A DNA stretch of 64,000 nucleotides from Micrococcus flavus (GTDB lineage: Bacteria; Actinomycetota; Actinomycetes; Actinomycetales; Micrococcaceae), in the NCBI RefSeq assembly GCF_014204815.1, contig NZ_JACHMC010000001.1, positions 2,232,001-2,296,000 of the forward strand, in the 5' to 3' direction. The notes beneath the pieces were generated by a model that saw only the letters and a list, made by a program, of their open reading frames with translations, was not told the DNA's origin and did not search any database. The position numbers and the translations under genes are program-made. Below are positions 55,133 through 61,521 of the stretch, piece by piece (the first letter of the stretch is position 1; every line of letters starts with the position of its first letter).

Positions 55133-57322
55133 TCAGCCCTCGGCGGAGGCCTCCTCGAGCAGGTCCCGCAGGAACCCCGCGAACCCGCCCGGGGTGCGTC
55201 CCTCCAGCCGGGAGGAGGTGTGGACGCGCACCCGGTCCGTGGCGAGCACCCGGTCCTCGCCCAGGGCGCGCACGGCCTCGGCCAGGCGGACGTCCTCGTG
55301 CTCGGCCACCGCGGCGAACCCGCCGACCCGCTCGTACAGCGCCCACGGCAGGCCGAGGTTCGCCCCGTGCACGTGGGGGTGGTCCTCCCGGTGCTCGTAG
55401 TCGGCGCGCCAGCTGCGAACCAGGCCCTGGTCCGCGTGGGCGGGCAGGTCCACGGTGCCGAGCACCATGGCCTGGCCGTCCGCGCGACGCCGCGCGGCCA
55501 GGGCCGGCTGCCCCACGAGCCAGTCGGCGGGCACGCGGGTGTCCGCGTCCGTGCAGGCCAGCCACAGCGCCGCGGCGGGCACGTCCGGGAACAGCCCCCG
55601 GGCGTGCCGGGCGGCCTCGGCGCGCGCCCGACCCACCCCGCCGGCGCCCGGGCCCAGTTCGAGCACGTGGATCCGGGGGTCGCGGGAGCGGGCGGCGCGG
55701 GCCGCCGCGAGGGTGGGGGTGTCGTCGTCCGGCACGGCCACCACCGCGGCAGCCGAACCCTGCGTGTGCTGCGCCTCCCAGTGGTCCAGGGCGGCGGAGA
55801 GCCCGGCGAGGGAGTCGGGCAGGTGCTCGGCCTCGTCTTTGGCCGGCACCACCACCACGGCGTGCGTGGCGGCCGCGGCGCGGGTGTGCACGGACAGGCG
55901 CAGGTCCGCCTCCACGTGCTCGGACAGCAGGCGCCACCGCGGGTCGGCGGCCACGCGGTCGTGCACCGCGTCCCCGTCGAGCGGCCAGCCGGTGATCGGC
56001 TGGCGCCAGTGGCACAGCAGCAGCTCCCCGCCCGGGCCCAGGGAGGCGTCGGCGGCGTCCACGAGCGCGTCGAGCTCCTCGGGCTGCAGGAAGTAGCCGA
56101 TCTCCGAGGCGACGACGAGGTCCACGGGCGCGCCGGCGTCGTCGTCCGGACCGCCGGCCGCCTCTCCGGCGGGGCCGAGGTCCGCGGGCCAGTCGGCGGG
56201 CAGGACCGCGAGGCGGACCTCCGCGTGGGGCACGTCCGCCAGGTGCGCGGCGGCGCGCTCCACGGCCACCTGGGAGGCCTCGAGGCCCACCACGCGCTCC
56301 GCGCGCTCGGCCAGCGCCGCGGTGAGCACGCCGATGGACGCGCCCGCCTCCACTACCGTCCCGTAGCGGGGCCGTGGGAGCACGGCGAGGGTGAGCGCGC
56401 GCTTGCGGGCCTCGTACGGGCTGGTCAGGTAGTGCCAGGGGTCGTCGTGCGCACGGTAGAGCCGGTCGAACACGGCGGAGGCGCGGGAGGCGTCGCCGTC
56501 GTCCACGGCGGTGCGCCGGAACGTCTCGAACCCGCGGCTGAAGTGGGCGATCATGCGCGCGGGCAGGATCGCCTCGTCGCCGGGCGCGGCCGAGAGCGGG
56601 CGCGTCTGGGAGGCGTGCGCGTCGAGCGCGGCGCGGCGGGCCTCGGCGTCGCCGGGGGCCAGGTCCAGGCGCCGGTAGCGGCGCGGGCGCAGCTCCTCGG
56701 GAGCGCCCCAGTGCCAGAACCACAGGGGGAAGGCGTACAGCTCGAGGTCGTGCTCGGCGGCCAGCGCCGCGGCCGCCGCGCCCACCGTGTCATGGTCCCC
56801 GTGGCCGTCGTCGGGGTCGTGGCTGACCAGCACGACGGCGCCGCCCGCCCCCGCCTCCGGGGCGCCCCCCGAGGGGCCGTCCCCGGCGGTGCGCTCGGCC
56901 AGGACGCGCTCGAGCGCGGCCCGGACCTCCGCGGGCCGGGCGGCGAGGTCGCCGTCGGGCAGGCCGAGGGACTCCCACGTGAGCGTGCCGGCCTCCGGAC
57001 CCAGTCCGTCCGCGAGCGCGGCCACCGCGTGGTCCATCTCGGTCCGGCGCAGACGCACGAGGTCGGCGGGGGTGTGGGTGGGCGAGTCGGGGTGGGAGGC
57101 CTCCCCGGCCGTGGCCAGGGCCACGTGCACGTCCGCCCCGCCGCGCAGGGCCGCACGGATCAGGCCGGCGGCGCCGAGGGTCTCGTCGTCCGGGTGGGCG
57201 ACGGCCACGAGCAGCGTGTCACCGGGGGCCCAGGTGCGCGGGGTCAGGGAGGGAAGGTCGGCCACGCCGGCGGCCTCCCAGGCCGCCTCGTCCGTGCCGG
57301 CGTCCCGGTGGTCGAACCTCAC
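55133..57322 (-). CDS. Three-domain fusion: PIG-L deacetylase, NodS-like methyltransferase, family 2 glycosyltransferase
   Basis: A 729-aa protein reading through three modules without interruption. (1) PIG-L/LmbE zinc deacetylase, residues ~38-230: VAVAHPDDETLGAAG and SHDPDDGHGDHDTV supply the metal ligands. (2) SAM methyltransferase, ~300-470: VVEAGASIGVLTAALAE with VVASEIGYFLQPEEL, the NodS-like type. (3) GT2-type glycosyltransferase, ~488-729: VVVPAKDEAEHLPDSL, CTDADTRVPADWL, GANLGLPWALYERVGGF, EDVRLAEAVRALG. I take GTG 57322, which overlaps the acyl-CoA dehydrogenase stop (GTGA); GTG 57325 is next to it. It would act in the cytosol on a sugar-bearing or aminosugar-bearing small molecule or lipid; product unknown. 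Confidence 0.85.
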   Translation of the reverse strand: MRFDHRDAGTDEAAWEAAGVADLPSLTPRTWAPGDTLLVAVAHPDDETLGAAGLIRAALRGGADVHVALATAGEASHPDSPTHTPADLVRLRRTEMDHAVAALADGLGPEAGTLTWESLGLPDGDLAARPAEVRAALERVLAERTAGDGPSGGAPEAGAGGAVVLVSHDPDDGHGDHDTVGAAAAALAAEHDLELYAFPLWFWHWGAPEELRPRRYRRLDLAPGDAEARRAALDAHASQTRPLSAAPGDEAILPARMIAHFSRGFETFRRTAVDDGDASRASAVFDRLYRAHDDPWHYLTSPYEARKRALTLAVLPRPRYGTVVEAGASIGVLTAALAERAERVVGLEASQVAVERAAAHLADVPHAEVRLAVLPADWPADLGPAGEAAGGPDDDAGAPVDLVVASEIGYFLQPEELDALVDAADASLGPGGELLLCHWRQPITGWPLDGDAVHDRVAADPRWRLLSEHVEADLRLSVHTRAAAATHAVVVVPAKDEAEHLPDSLAGLSAALDHWEAQHTQGSAAAVVAVPDDDTPTLAAARAARSRDPRIHVLELGPGAGGVGRARAEAARHARGLFPDVPAAALWLACTDADTRVPADWLVGQPALAARRRADGQAMVLGTVDLPAHADQGLVRSWRADYEHREDHPHVHGANLGLPWALYERVGGFAAVAEHEDVRLAEAVRALGEDRVLATDRVRVHTSSRLEGRTPGGFAGFLRDLLEEASAEG

Positions 57323-58461
57323 CACGGCTGCACCCCCGCGCGCTCGGCGGGGTCCAGGGCCAGCAGGCCCTCGGCGAGCCGGGCGTCGTCCCGGTGGCCG
57401 TGGTGCTGGCGCAGGTAGACCTGCAGATCGGCGACGGCGCGGGCGTGCGCGGCGTCCCCGGTCAGCGGGCCGGGGCCGGTGGCCTGCCCGACGACGTCCA
57501 GCACCTCGGTGCACAGCTGCGCCACGGTGCCGCGGATCCGGTCCGCCTCCACCTGGCCGTGCGCGCCGTCCAGGCGCCCGGCGTCCACGTCCTCGGCGGC
57601 GTGACCGAGCAGGGACGCCATGGCGTGCAGCAGCCGGTCTACGCGGCCCAGCGCCGCCAGGCCGACCTGGTCCGGGCCGGGCCCGCGGCCGTCCGCCGCC
57701 GCGGCGGCACGGCGCTGCACCGCGGTGCGCAGGGTGCGGGCCACGTGCACGGCACCGCCGAACCACACGGCGGCCACCCCGATGCCGCCCCACGCGAAGC
57801 CGGGGCGGCGCAGGTACCACTCGGGCTCTCCCACGGAGCGGCCGGGGACGGCGTCGAAGCGCAGCCCCACGGTGGTGATCGCGGCCAGGCCGAGGGCCGG
57901 CCACGCGGTGTCCACGGGCGTGACGCCGGGGTGGGCCAGGTCCACGAGCAGGGCGTGGCGCAGTCCGTCCTCGGCGCGGCCGGTGACCACCGCGGCCGCG
58001 CAGCGGTCGGCGAGCGAGCACCACGGCTTGGTCCCGTCCAGGAGCCAGGCGGCCCCGTCGGGGGCCGCGTCCGGGGCCGGGCGGACGGCGGGGGTGACGC
58101 CGCCGGACTCGGACGCGTACACGCCCAGCAGCCCGGCGGGGGCGGGCACACCGGCCTGGGACAGGATCGAGAGGGCGTCCAGGTGCGGCTCGAGGACGCG
58201 CGCGGCGGACAGGGACACCGCCGCGGTGGAGGCGAGCAGCTCCCACTGGCGGCGGGTGCGCCCCTCCCCGGTCAGGGGCAGGTCCAGGGCGGGGGCGCCG
58301 TCGTCGTCCCGCCCCGGGGCCCCGCGGGAGAGGAGCGCGACCATGGGCTCCACGCCGGATCCGCCCTCCGCGGCGGCGGCGAGGACGGCGGCCTCGTCGG
58401 CGTCGGGCTCGGGGGCGGAGGGGGCGGCTCCGGGGAGCAGCACGAGCGGAGTCGCGGGCAT
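57319..58461 (-). CDS. Acyl-CoA dehydrogenase family protein coupled to the triple fusion
   Basis: A 380-aa protein of the acyl-CoA dehydrogenase/flavin-dependent fold: helical N-terminus, the mid beta-domain (WLLDGTKPWCSLADRCAAAVV, then GLAAITTVGLRFDAVP), and a helical C-terminus (VAQLCTEVLDVVGQATG). The usual catalytic glutamate signature is not obvious, so the reaction is open. ATG 58459-58461 with AGAAGG 5 nt upstream. It overlaps the fusion gene by 4 nt, which makes a common pathway likely. Confidence 0.8.
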   Translation of the reverse strand: MPATPLVLLPGAAPSAPEPDADEAAVLAAAAEGGSGVEPMVALLSRGAPGRDDDGAPALDLPLTGEGRTRRQWELLASTAAVSLSAARVLEPHLDALSILSQAGVPAPAGLLGVYASESGGVTPAVRPAPDAAPDGAAWLLDGTKPWCSLADRCAAAVVTGRAEDGLRHALLVDLAHPGVTPVDTAWPALGLAAITTVGLRFDAVPGRSVGEPEWYLRRPGFAWGGIGVAAVWFGGAVHVARTLRTAVQRRAAAAADGRGPGPDQVGLAALGRVDRLLHAMASLLGHAAEDVDAGRLDGAHGQVEADRIRGTVAQLCTEVLDVVGQATGPGPLTGDAAHARAVADLQVYLRQHHGHRDDARLAEGLLALDPAERAGVQPW

Positions 58462-58597: not shown

Positions 58598-58628
58598 CTT
58601 GACAAGTTCAAGACAACTGCGCTGGGGT
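58598..58628 (+). promoter_or_regulatory. furA promoter and FurA/CatR-type operator
   Basis: -35 TTGACA (58599-58604), 18-bp spacer, -10 TGGGGT (58623-58628), then 6 nt to the furA ATG: a leaderless promoter with a good -35. The palindrome CTTGA-5-TCAAG (58598-58612) overlaps the -35, so a protein bound there would repress furA-katG. Confidence 0.65.
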
Positions 58629-58634
58629 GGGAGC

Positions 58635-59111
58635 ATGAGCATCGTCCATGCCGACCCCGCCGCCGACCGCGCGCTGCTGCGCGCCGCCGGCCTGCGGGTG
58701 ACCCGCCCCCGGGTGGCCGTGCTCTCCGCCCTGCGCTCGTGGCCCCACGCGGACGCCTCCTCCGTGCTGGCCGCGGTCCGTGCGGACCTCCCGCAGGTCT
58801 CCCACCAGGCCGTCTACGACTGCCTCCACGTGCTGACCGGCGCGGGCCTGGTGCGCTCGCTGCAGCCGGCCGGCTCCGCCGCGCGGTACGAGATCGCCGC
58901 CCACGACAACCACCACCACCTCGTGTGCCGCGGCTGCGGCACCCTGGTGGACGTGCCGTGCCGGACGGGCTCGGCCCCCTGCCTGCACGCCCCCGAGGAC
59001 CACGGGTTCCTCATCGACGAGGCCGAGGTCTACTACTGGGGCCTGTGCCCCGCGTGCCGCGACGGACAGGACGAGGCGGCCCCGCCGTCGTCGTCCGCCG
59101 CGGTCCCCTGA
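58635..59111 (+). CDS. furA: Fur family peroxide regulator (FurA/CatR type)
   Basis: A 158-aa metalloregulator. Winged-helix N-terminal part ([44 protein letters not shown]), then the dimerisation domain with [20 protein letters not shown] and the C-terminal CPAC pair of zinc cysteines. It is directly upstream of katG by 52 nt, the arrangement known from mycobacteria and Streptomyces, and probably represses both genes until peroxide oxidises it. ATG 58635 supported by the promoter spacing. Confidence 0.93.
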
Positions 59112-59163
59112 ACCTCCTCCATCCACCCGCGACCCCACCTTCCGTCCCCGAAAGGATCACGCC

Positions 59164-61521
59164 ATGAGCGCTGAAGACAAGAACCTCCCGCACGGCGAGG
59201 AGAGCACCACCGTCGGCGAGATGAACGACACGGTGGCCGTCGGCCAGCCCACGGAGCCCCGCGCGGACGCCGACGGCGGCGCCGCCCCCACCGCCGCGGC
59301 GGCCGACAACCCGCAGACCGCCGCCGAGGCGGAGGGGGGCACGTGCCCCGTGGCCCACGGCGCCCCGCTGGCCCACCCCACCTCGGGCGACGCCAATCAG
59401 CAGTGGTGGCCGAACCGCCTGAACCTGAAGATCCTCGCGAAGGACCAGCCGGTCCAGCGCCCCGAGGACGCGGGCTTCGACTACCCGGCCGCCTTCGAGA
59501 AGCTGGACCTGGCCGAGGTCAAGGCGACCATCGCCGAGGTCCTCACCACCTCCAAGGACTGGTGGCCCGCCGACTTCGGCACCTACGGCCCGTTCATGAT
59601 CCGCATGGCCTGGCACTCGGCGGGCACCTACCGCGTGGGCGACGGTCGCGGCGGCGCCGGCGAGGGCCAGCAGCGCTTCGCCCCGCTCAACTCCTGGCCG
59701 GACAACGCCTCCCTGGACAAGGCTCGCCGCCTGCTGTGGCCGGTCAAGAAGAAGTACGGCCAGTCCCTGTCCTGGGCGGACCTCATCGTCCTGGCCGGCA
59801 ACGTGGCCCACGAGACCATGGGCATGCCGACCTTCGGCTTCTCCGGCGGCCGCATCGACGCCTACGAGCCCGCGGACGACGTGTACTGGGGCCCGGAGAC
59901 CGAGTGGACCAACGGCGGCGCCGAGCGGTACAAGGGCGAGCGTGAGCTGGACAACCCGCTCGCGGCCGTCGAGATGGGCCTCATCTACGTGAACCCGGAG
60001 GGCCCCGAGGGCGAGCCGGACCCGCTGAAGTCCGCCAAGGACATCCACGAGACGTTCTCCCGCATGGGCATGAACGCGGAGGAGACCGTCGCGCTGATCG
60101 GCGGCGGCCACACCTTCGGCAAGACCCACGGCGCCGGCCCCGTGGAGGGCAACATCGGCGCCGAGCCCGAGGCCGCGGACATCGAGCAGATGGGCCTGGG
60201 CTGGAAGAACGCCTACGGCGAGGGCAAGGGCCGCGACACCATCACGTCCGGCCTCGAGGTCACCTGGACCTACCACCCCACCCGCTGGGACAACGAGTTC
60301 TTCCACATCCTCTACGCGTACGAGTGGGAGCTGATGGAGTCCCCGGCCGGCGCGAAGCAGTGGCGCCCCGTCAACGGCGGCGGCTCCGACATGGTCCCCG
60401 AGTCCGACTTCCAGGGCCGCCGCGAGCCCCGCATGCTGACCTCGGACCTCGCCCTGCGCTTCGATCCCGTGTTCGGCGAGATCTCCAAGCGCTTCAAGGA
60501 CGACTTCGCCGCGTTCCAGGACGCGTACGCCCGCGCGTGGTTCAAGCTGACCCACCGCGACATGGGCCCGATCGCCCGCCACTACGGCCCCGAGGTCCCC
60601 TCCGAGGAGCTCGTGTGGATGGACCCGGTCACCGCCCCGGAGAACGTCCCCGGCGACGCCGAGGTCCAGGCCGTCAAGGACGCGGTCGCCTCCTCCGGCC
60701 TGTCCGTGACCGAGCTCGTGAAGACCGCGTGGGCCGCGGCCTCCTCCTTCCGCTCCTCGGACAAGCGCGGCGGCGCCAACGGCGGCCGCATCCGCCTCGA
60801 GCCGCAGCGCTCGTGGGAGGTCAACGAGCCCGCCGTCATCGGCCCGGTCATCACGACGCTGGAGCAGATCGCCGAGCAGACCGGCGTGACGTTCGCCGAC
60901 ACCCTCGTGATCGCCGGCAACTGGGCCGTGGAGAAGGCCGCGGCCGACGGCGGCGTGCCGGTCTCCGTGCCCTTCACGCCGGGCCGCGGCGACGCCACCC
61001 AGGAGCAGACGGACGAGGAGTCCTTCCGCCACATGGAGCCCAAGATCGACGGCTTCCGCAACTGGGACCCGCGCCCGTCCAAGCAGTTCCCGTCCGAGTT
61101 CGCGCTCGTGGACCGCGCCAACCTGATCGGCCTCTCCGCCCCGGAGATGACGGTGCTCGTGGCCGGCCTGCGCGTGCTGGGCGCCGTGCCCGAGGGCTCG
61201 ACGGACGGCGTGTGGACCGAGAACGTGGGCGTCCTGTCCCAGGACTTCCTCACCGCGATCACGGACATCGACACGCAGTGGGAGAAGGTGGCCGAGGGCC
61301 GGTACCGCGGTGTGACCGCCGAGGGCAAGGAGCTCTTCGGCACCCGTGACGACCTCGTGTTCGGCTCCAACTCGGAGCTGCGCACCCTGTCCGAGGTGTA
61401 CGCCGCGGACGACGCCAAGGAGAAGTTCGTGCGCGACTTCGTGGCCGCCTGGGTCAAGGTCATGGACGCGGACCGCTTCGACGCGCGCCGCGCCGCGAAG
61501 GAGTCCGTGGCCCAGGGCTGA
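59164..61521 (+). CDS. katG: Catalase-peroxidase KatG
   Basis: A 785-aa bifunctional haem enzyme that removes hydrogen peroxide. By counting from the ATG, the distal triad is Arg147, Trp150, His151 ([11 protein letters not shown]), the Met-Tyr-Trp crosslink partners are Trp150, Tyr275 (LIYVNPEG) and Met301 (RMGMN), and the proximal ligand is His316 ([11 protein letters not shown]). The C-terminal second peroxidase-like domain is complete. A ~45-residue Ala/Asp/Glu-rich leader makes it longer than the usual ~740 aa. It follows furA by 52 nt; a GAAAGG ribosome-binding sequence precedes the ATG. Confidence 0.97.

Follow-up and report, generated by a model that had tools for sequence, protein, structure and literature searches.

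A fused deacetylase, methyltransferase and glycosyltransferase of Micrococcus flavus and its flavoprotein partner: a possible cassette for a soluble aminosugar glycoside

The 64,000-nucleotide stretch of the Micrococcus flavus genome analysed here (the window) encodes a PIG-L deacetylase, a NodS-like methyltransferase and a GT2 glycosyltransferase on a single polypeptide chain, P0001, adjoined by a gene for a flavoprotein with the acyl-CoA dehydrogenase (ACAD) fold (Table 1). The locus may represent a cassette of four enzymes, locally fused, that makes a soluble, modified aminosugar glycoside serving as an intracellular stress protectant, a reading to which a probability of roughly 45% is given. 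The four-enzyme set is widespread; the full triple fusion is largely confined to Micrococcus and two sibling genera. Judged from the sequences, the core chemistry is most likely N-deacetylation and N-methylation of an aminosugar together with sugar transfer, because PIG-L and NodB-like deacetylases alternate in the operons and NodS is the closest named structure to the methyltransferase.

Table 1. Position of the cassette, its modules and its neighbours in the window
Feature	Position	Strand	Remarks
PIG-L / NodS-like methyltransferase / GT2 fusion (P0001)	55133..57322	-	729 aa, GTG start
PIG-L N-deacetylase module	56765..57211	-	Pfam stretch, residues 38-186; AHPDDE and HxDH metal motifs
NodS-like SAM methyltransferase module	55883..56467	-	residues 286-480
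GT2 glycosyltransferase module	55133..55876	-	residues 483-729; TDADT and ED motifs
ACAD-fold flavoprotein gene, 382 aa	57319..58467	-	GTG start; ATG at 58461 possible
Stop/start overlap GTGA, flavoprotein gene and fusion	57319..57322	-	4 nt
Palindrome CTTGACAAGTTCAAG, between cassette and fur; possible Fur-family operator	58598..58612	.	
Fur-family regulator gene, divergent neighbour	58635..59111	+	named from reading the protein sequence
katG-like catalase-peroxidase gene, neighbour outside the cassette	59164..61521	+	named from reading the sequence

The frame of the fusion runs without interruption from start to end, and the three modules that the first-pass annotation had seen in it are borne out by a Pfam domain search, profiles and motifs. 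PIG-L scores 70.8 bits against a cut-off of 28.2, and the metal-motif residues (H43, D45, D46, H174, D176 and H177) are invariant in an alignment of eight rows; the named matches of the PIG-L profile include diacetylchitobiose deacetylase, BshB, MshB and teicoplanin deacetylase. Glycos_transf_2 is matched by residues 490-604 at 29.0 bits (cut-off 23.3), with D111, D113, E195 and D196 invariant in nine aligned rows. The best Pfam model for the methyltransferase (residues 309-443) reaches 29.6 bits, just below its cut-off of 30, and the Pfam NodS model reaches 18.9 bits, below 24. The methyltransferase assignment is safe because relatives and profile matches back these scores: residues 303-478 match PDB 4isc at 1.3e-32, and a 10-row methyltransferase profile matches the NodS structure 3ofj, its best named structure, at 1.4e-27. 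NodS is also the best NCBIfam model for this enzyme in all three relatives scanned. The full-length model of P0001 has a mean pLDDT of 82.8, with stretches of low confidence at residues 148-159, 386-395, 646-648 and 710-718 and around 270-300.

Fourteen genomes (ten of genus g1, the source included, one of g2 and three of g4) align with the whole fusion in a single frame free of stops, with identities of 52-100%; in one of them, G009, the match consists of two pieces within a single frame of 1148 aa. Since related species keep the frame open, a sequencing error hiding stop codons between the modules, a concern raised with the initial description, is excluded, and the stop-free full-length relatives rule out a chance open frame as well.

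The gene upstream had been described as overlapping the fusion by 4 nt, and it does so through a GTGA shared at the fusion start. Of 23 loci in relatives with coordinates that allow the comparison, 21 have the same overlap. The ATG six bases inside the flavoprotein gene coincides with the end of the locus given earlier. The supposed coupling of the two genes is upheld by their co-occurrence: the methyltransferase has an ACAD-like gene on its own strand and no more than 3 kb away in 51/52 regions from actinobacteria and 21/22 from proteobacteria. On plasmids, all 29 records that the ACAD matches at 1e-10 fall within the 30 best records of the fusion protein, and the two matches adjoin in each when their positions are compared by eye.

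Of the 197 genomes in the window's family, 96 encode relatives of the fusion protein; the methyltransferase occurs in 76 of the 119 genomes from the genus to which Pseudomonas sp. dw_358 belongs. The cassette is plasmid-borne in Acinetobacter, Comamonas, Pandoraea and others. Most of the relatives listed carry the set as more than two proteins, so that the single-chain architecture is not the essence of the system. Most of the cassette-bearing Micrococcaceae listed have PIG-L and the methyltransferase fused; these two N-terminal modules are those of the bacterial PIG-L/methyltransferase double fusions, to which Micrococcus and its sibling genera add the GT2 module. Ten triple-fusion rows form one clade in the tree (support 100/98, with the bootstrap not settled). 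A single fusion event limited to Micrococcus and the two genera is only partly safe. A second, separate event is possible, because in G745, a genome of genus g10 that lies outside the tree, the PIG-L-methyltransferase and glycosyltransferase matches stand in one open frame of 860 aa.

Among the 52 actinobacterial regions the deacetylase is PIG-L in 31 and NodB-like in 19; none has both and two have neither. In those 19, where no PIG-L was detected, the NodB-like deacetylase stands in the operon instead, and its TFDDGP and HCxxH motifs are intact in every one. NodB is the best NCBIfam model for the one such protein scanned, that of relative L075, at 108.7 bits against the equivalog cut-off of 240; the window itself has PIG-L. 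Pfam PF01522 is matched by the NodB-like protein at 82.4 bits. Together with the modules and the NodS profile match, this alternation agrees with the N-deacetylation, N-methylation and sugar transfer proposed at the outset.

The nearest parallel is the NodC-NodB-NodS branch of Nod factor synthesis, which likewise joins a GT2 enzyme, an N-deacetylase (NodB-like here too, in some lineages) and a methyltransferase, that of the cassette having NodS as its nearest named structure. In Nod factors, mono-deacetylation comes first and N-methylation follows (PMC5080398). The cassette differs from that branch in having no membrane glycosyltransferase, no NodA in the source genome, PIG-L in most lineages seen and an additional ACAD-fold flavoprotein; in the neighbourhoods read, it lies beside trehalose, alpha-glucan and catalase genes. 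The NodS equivalog NF041650 (cut-off 300) is matched at 21.4 bits by the window and at 88.7, 62.0 and 57.0 bits by relatives L075, L012 and L010. A membrane-embedded, processive GT2 of the NodC type is not what the fusion encodes: its highest 19-residue hydropathy is 1.34, no segment of that length reaching 1.9. None of the 16 cassette proteins tested by hydropathy has a segment resembling a membrane helix.

These results bear on the glycolipid product originally envisaged. If the product were a glycolipid or a signal resembling lipochitooligosaccharides, the ACAD-like enzyme would desaturate an acyl-CoA, which would then be attached to the deacetylated, N-methylated sugar. The NodB-, NodS- and GT2-like chemistry and the fold of the flavoprotein suit such a product, but it is quite improbable given the lack of membrane-like segments, of the N-acyltransferase NodA and of a catalytic Glu at either ACAD base position (33 of 33 rows). 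NodA (PF02474) was not found in the source genome; a search of 39 genomes detected it in one, as two genes about 400 kb from the cassette. A lipochitooligosaccharide proper is ruled out by the NodA and hydropathy results.

The partner had been called an acyl-CoA dehydrogenase, and of this name the fold stands but the catalytic class probably does not. The AlphaFold model shows the full ACAD fold (pLDDT 91.6), but both Pfam ACAD matches are below their gathering cut-offs (28.6 of 33.3 and 17.9 of 22.4); relative L075 exceeds the cut-off for the N-terminal ACAD domain (25.5 of 22.9). Position 355 is occupied by H in 25 rows, S in five, D in two and Q in one, and the alternative position 227 by G in 28 and D in five; the two, checked against MCAD E376 and the IVD-type position, are those that we take to correspond to the ACAD base, from a profile alignment extended by the ACAD motif. 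A canonical acyl-CoA dehydrogenase is rejected on the missing base, although the fold scores tie with those of dehydrogenases and do not separate the monooxygenase and dehydrogenase classes.

The three top Foldseek matches are DszC, DszC again and a nitrososynthase, and the model suggests that the protein resembles these flavoproteins as much as it does dehydrogenases. DszC is also its top profile match among PDB sequences. The invariant C150-S151 aligns with C162-S163 of DszC and an invariant His, counted on the alignment, with H97; the profile alignment ends before the C-terminal His region, in which the catalytic His of DszC lies. The aromatic sulfur compounds on which DszC and TdsC act are unlike the substrates considered for the cassette. 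The flavoprotein might nevertheless act on sulfur or another small molecule in the manner of SfnB or DszC, with the sugar enzymes producing a conjugate unrelated to it, a view that draws on the DszC profile match and on SfnB as the most frequent NCBIfam match (20/33 rows; DszC 5). Those matches are far below equivalog cut-offs where shown, and the tight linkage to aminosugar enzymes makes this arrangement unlikely. The sugar N-oxygenases and nitrososynthases KijD3, ORF36 (3mxl) and DnmZ use the ACAD fold on aminosugars and are among the best fold matches, at about 20% identity. Their substrates are dTDP-sugars, in antibiotic clusters.

The soluble glycoside would be made as follows. The GT2 module would move an N-acetylhexosamine, probably GlcNAc, onto a small acceptor; PIG-L, or the NodB-like deacetylase in other lineages, would then strip the acetyl group, and the freed amine would be N-methylated by the NodS-like module. 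The flavoprotein would act last, in an oxidation probably other than the dehydrogenation of an acyl-CoA and possibly a flavin-dependent amine oxygenation, by analogy with KijD3, ORF36 and DnmZ. The product probably protects the cell from within, alongside trehalose and catalases, in a response to desiccation, osmotic or oxidative stress. A bolder version, which is unlikely, is that many non-symbiotic bacteria combine Nod-factor-like chemistry (GT2, an interchangeable PIG-L or NodB deacetylase and a NodS-like N-methyltransferase) and an ACAD-fold N-oxygenase in a stress cassette for a new class of soluble protectants. These would be N-methylated, possibly N-hydroxylated or nitrone glucosamine glycosides, perhaps with trehalose or a different compatible solute as scaffold, that act as both osmolyte and radical scavenger; Nod factor synthesis may have drawn on such enzymes.

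A redox cofactor of the mycothiol or bacillithiol type, or a thiol analogue, would arise if the glycosyltransferase and PIG-L made a glucosaminyl scaffold that is decorated further. MshB and BshB, which make such scaffolds, are alike in PIG-L family, metal motif and glucosaminyl-conjugate substrates, and the neighbourhood of catalase and fur would fit; their partners differ, however, and the equivalog scores are far below the cut-offs (MshB 17.9/224, Mca 24.6/277, BshB2 18.6/195, BshB1 15.9/182.5 bits), on which membership in these pathways is rejected. MshA and BshA belong to a glycosyltransferase class other than GT2, unlike the enzyme here. A product of this type is improbable. It is very unlikely that the cassette modifies an amino sugar of the cell wall or capsule, in peptidoglycan or teichuronic acid. 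Wall GlcNAc is a substrate of PIG-L and NodB-like deacetylases in other systems and Micrococcus possesses a teichuronic acid, but the proteins tested by hydropathy have no strongly hydrophobic segment, and the cassette is common to Gram-negative and Gram-positive lineages, beside enzymes of trehalose synthesis.

The first-pass annotation had further supposed a compact, uncharacterised pathway for a modified glycolipid or aminosugar; the glycolipid is not supported. Although the set is widespread and keeps company with trehalose and catalase genes, no published account of it was found in the open PMC text, whose coverage leaves out most subscription journals. Identifying the product would add a new stress metabolite and reveal a biochemical cousin of the Nod factor pathway, and the single-chain form of Micrococcus is a convenient enzyme source for reconstitution.

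Dried Curtobacterium is reported to induce an unspecified acyl-CoA dehydrogenase and glycosyltransferases, which may or may not be those of the cassette (PMC12029717), and DtpC/KatE are desiccation factors (PMC13232832); the main text of the latter paper contains none of the terms acyl-CoA, PIG-L, glycosyltransferase or methyltransferase. Trehalose, alpha-glucan and catalase genes are the neighbours of the cassette elsewhere. Of the ten annotated plasmid regions, six have trehalose or GlgE genes and five have catalase; three of the ten come from Acinetobacter plasmids that closely resemble one another. Of 96 proteins near Pseudomonas cassettes, 19 belong to the alpha-amylase family, as against at most 1 of 139 in control regions, and in two Comamonas plasmids the cassette sits between otsA and otsB.

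The association of the flavoprotein, an ACAD-fold (acyl-CoA-dehydrogenase-fold) protein encoded upstream of the fusion, with the rest of the cassette was followed in three sets of relatives. The 53 actinobacterial regions have two sources, a search for relatives and a sample of 296 genomes across the phylum, 118 of which match at 1e-3, many of them solely via other PIG-L proteins; the window and one second-copy region were left out. The NodS-like methyltransferase (MT) is present in 52 of the 53, and 51 of these 52 have an ACAD-like gene no more than 3 kb away and co-oriented with the MT, the one miss being at a contig end; the glycosyltransferase (GT) is present in 48. The same adjacency is seen in the shorter loci of G005, G009 and G018, three relatives outside the 53 large regions. 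The 22 proteobacterial regions comprise 20 of the 76 positive genomes in the genus of Pseudomonas sp. dw_358 (119 genomes) and two from a class-wide sample (3/185 positive, counting the centre genome); they contain ACAD in 21, PIG-L in 21 and GT in 13. The flavoprotein matches 29 plasmid records at 1e-10, all among the 30 best for the fusion protein, and the two matches adjoin in every one; the thirtieth, from Paraburkholderia, has MT and GT only. The coupling to this gene, called an acyl-CoA dehydrogenase in the first-pass annotation, is thus upheld, and the flavoprotein is a dedicated partner of the cassette. One locus, L112 (G151), carries an ACAD-like gene and PIG-L with no detected MT or GT.

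Features of the locus, in window positions
Feature	Position	Strand	Basis or remark
ACAD-fold protein gene, 382 aa	57319-58467	minus	AlphaFold model
Fusion gene PIG-L/MT/GT2, 729 aa	55133-57322	minus	open frame and Pfam
Palindrome between cassette and Fur-family gene	58598-58612		conserved
Fur-family gene and katG	58635-61521		divergent from cassette

The window belongs to a Micrococcus-like genome of 2.55 Mb, the nearest named match being Micrococcus lacusdianchii (92% identity). The fusion frame is real. When the fusion was compared with 197 sampled genomes of its family, 96 matched at 1e-15, and in 14 of these the whole query aligns in one stop-free frame (10 in g1, the genus of the window genome, one in g2 and three in g4; one genome gives two match pieces within one frame), which bears out the open three-module frame noted earlier. 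The likewise noted 4-nt overlap also holds: GTGA is common to the end of the flavoprotein gene and the start of the fusion gene, and the overlap is kept in 21 of the 23 relatives' loci assessable from coordinates. Most other matches listed have PIG-L and MT in one match and GT separately. The ten triple fusions included in the MT tree form one clade (support 100/98). A separate, independent triple fusion may exist in genus g10 (G745:C23:44570-46753), where the PIG-L-MT and GT matches lie inside one 860-aa open frame.

Pfam places PIG-L at residues 38-186 and GT2 at 490-604, both above the cut-off, and the MT domain slightly below it. For the window fusion by itself, the NodS model is narrowly outscored by two Erm models, and all three stay far below cut-off. 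Once the relatives are included, the middle module is assigned with certainty as an MT: the best structure matches of the ten-row profile are 4isc, named simply as a methyltransferase, and next NodS (3ofj, 1.4e-27). The AlphaFold models have pLDDT values of 91.6 (flavoprotein) and 82.8 (full fusion). The 16 cassette proteins tested all lack a segment of membrane-like hydropathy; such a segment is present in two control proteins from the window.

The deacetylase is of two kinds. Of 52 actinobacterial regions, 31 have PIG-L only, 19 NodB-like only, none both and two neither; one of these last two regions sits at a contig end and starts partway through the flavoprotein gene. In the 19 NodB-like regions (18 in family f34, one in f25) PIG-L is not detected, and no more than 3 kb from the MT, on its strand, stands a polysaccharide deacetylase gene whose product keeps TFDDGP and HCxxH in every case. 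The one scanned gives PF01522 at 82.4 bits and, in NCBIfam, NodB as the best model (108.7 bits against a cut-off of 240). A ferredoxin-reductase-like gene stands beside 17 of the 19. That one gene set draws its deacetylase from either of two unrelated families argues for N-deacetylation as a true pathway step; the alternation may be a single event, because the sample is close to one family. Besides a full operon, G185 has a second NodB-like and NodS-like pair (L095, C22), in which the flavoprotein was not detected.

In the pathway proposed as most likely, GT2 would put HexNAc onto a soluble acceptor, the PIG-L or NodB-like enzyme would then deacetylate it, the NodS-like enzyme would N-methylate the deacetylated sugar and the flavoprotein would oxidize the product, which would play its part in a stress programme. 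Deacetylation and amine methylation have fair support; the acceptor, the oxidation and the physiological role we infer. In Nod factors, according to PMC5080398, mono-deacetylation comes first and N-methylation after. The enzyme families are each already known; no description of the set was found in open PMC text, where most subscription papers are missing, and we rate the cassette as akin to Nod-like aminosugar tailoring, not as categorically new. Another Micrococcus has two NodA-family matches above the Pfam cut-off (G002:C1:731155-731682 and 701638-702147), about 400 kb from its cassette.

In Micrococcus, the cassette and a Fur-family gene are transcribed divergently, and katG follows the Fur-family gene in some of the genomes. 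A TTTCTTGAC block is common to all 11 rows of the intergenic alignment, some of which represent the same species, and six rows have a perfect CTTGA-N5-TCAAG palindrome. The box presumably resembles those at actinobacterial furA promoters, and this side of the locus may link the cassette with the sensing of peroxide or iron.

In ten Pseudomonas regions, the alpha-amylase family accounts for 19 and 4-alpha-glucanotransferases for 7 of 96 neighbouring ORFs (at least 100 aa, chosen by codon make-up); in ten regions taken from these genomes as controls each accounts for at most 1 of 139, since neither is among the 25 listed. Downstream of the cassette, five Pseudomonas regions (L134, L136, L138, L141, L145) have an additional PIG-L gene together with a gene of the endonuclease/exonuclease/phosphatase family. 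Ten annotated plasmid regions, three of them from closely alike Acinetobacter plasmids and two from Comamonas, include trehalose or GlgE genes in six and catalase in five. Both Comamonas plasmids have the order otsA-cassette-otsB in one orientation, the cassette overlapping otsA by 4 nt. An 'iron-containing redox enzyme' gene is found upstream of the cassette in Acinetobacter plasmids (L013:4117-5523, L166:4115-5521, L167:4117-5523; PF14518 in L013); its product is reminiscent of DtpC, described in PMC13232832 as a haem-oxygenase-like diiron desiccation factor. Nineteen Acinetobacter entries of the plasmid collection carry the cassette, and 18 of the 29 plasmid records with the flavoprotein were typed as mobilizable and three as conjugative.
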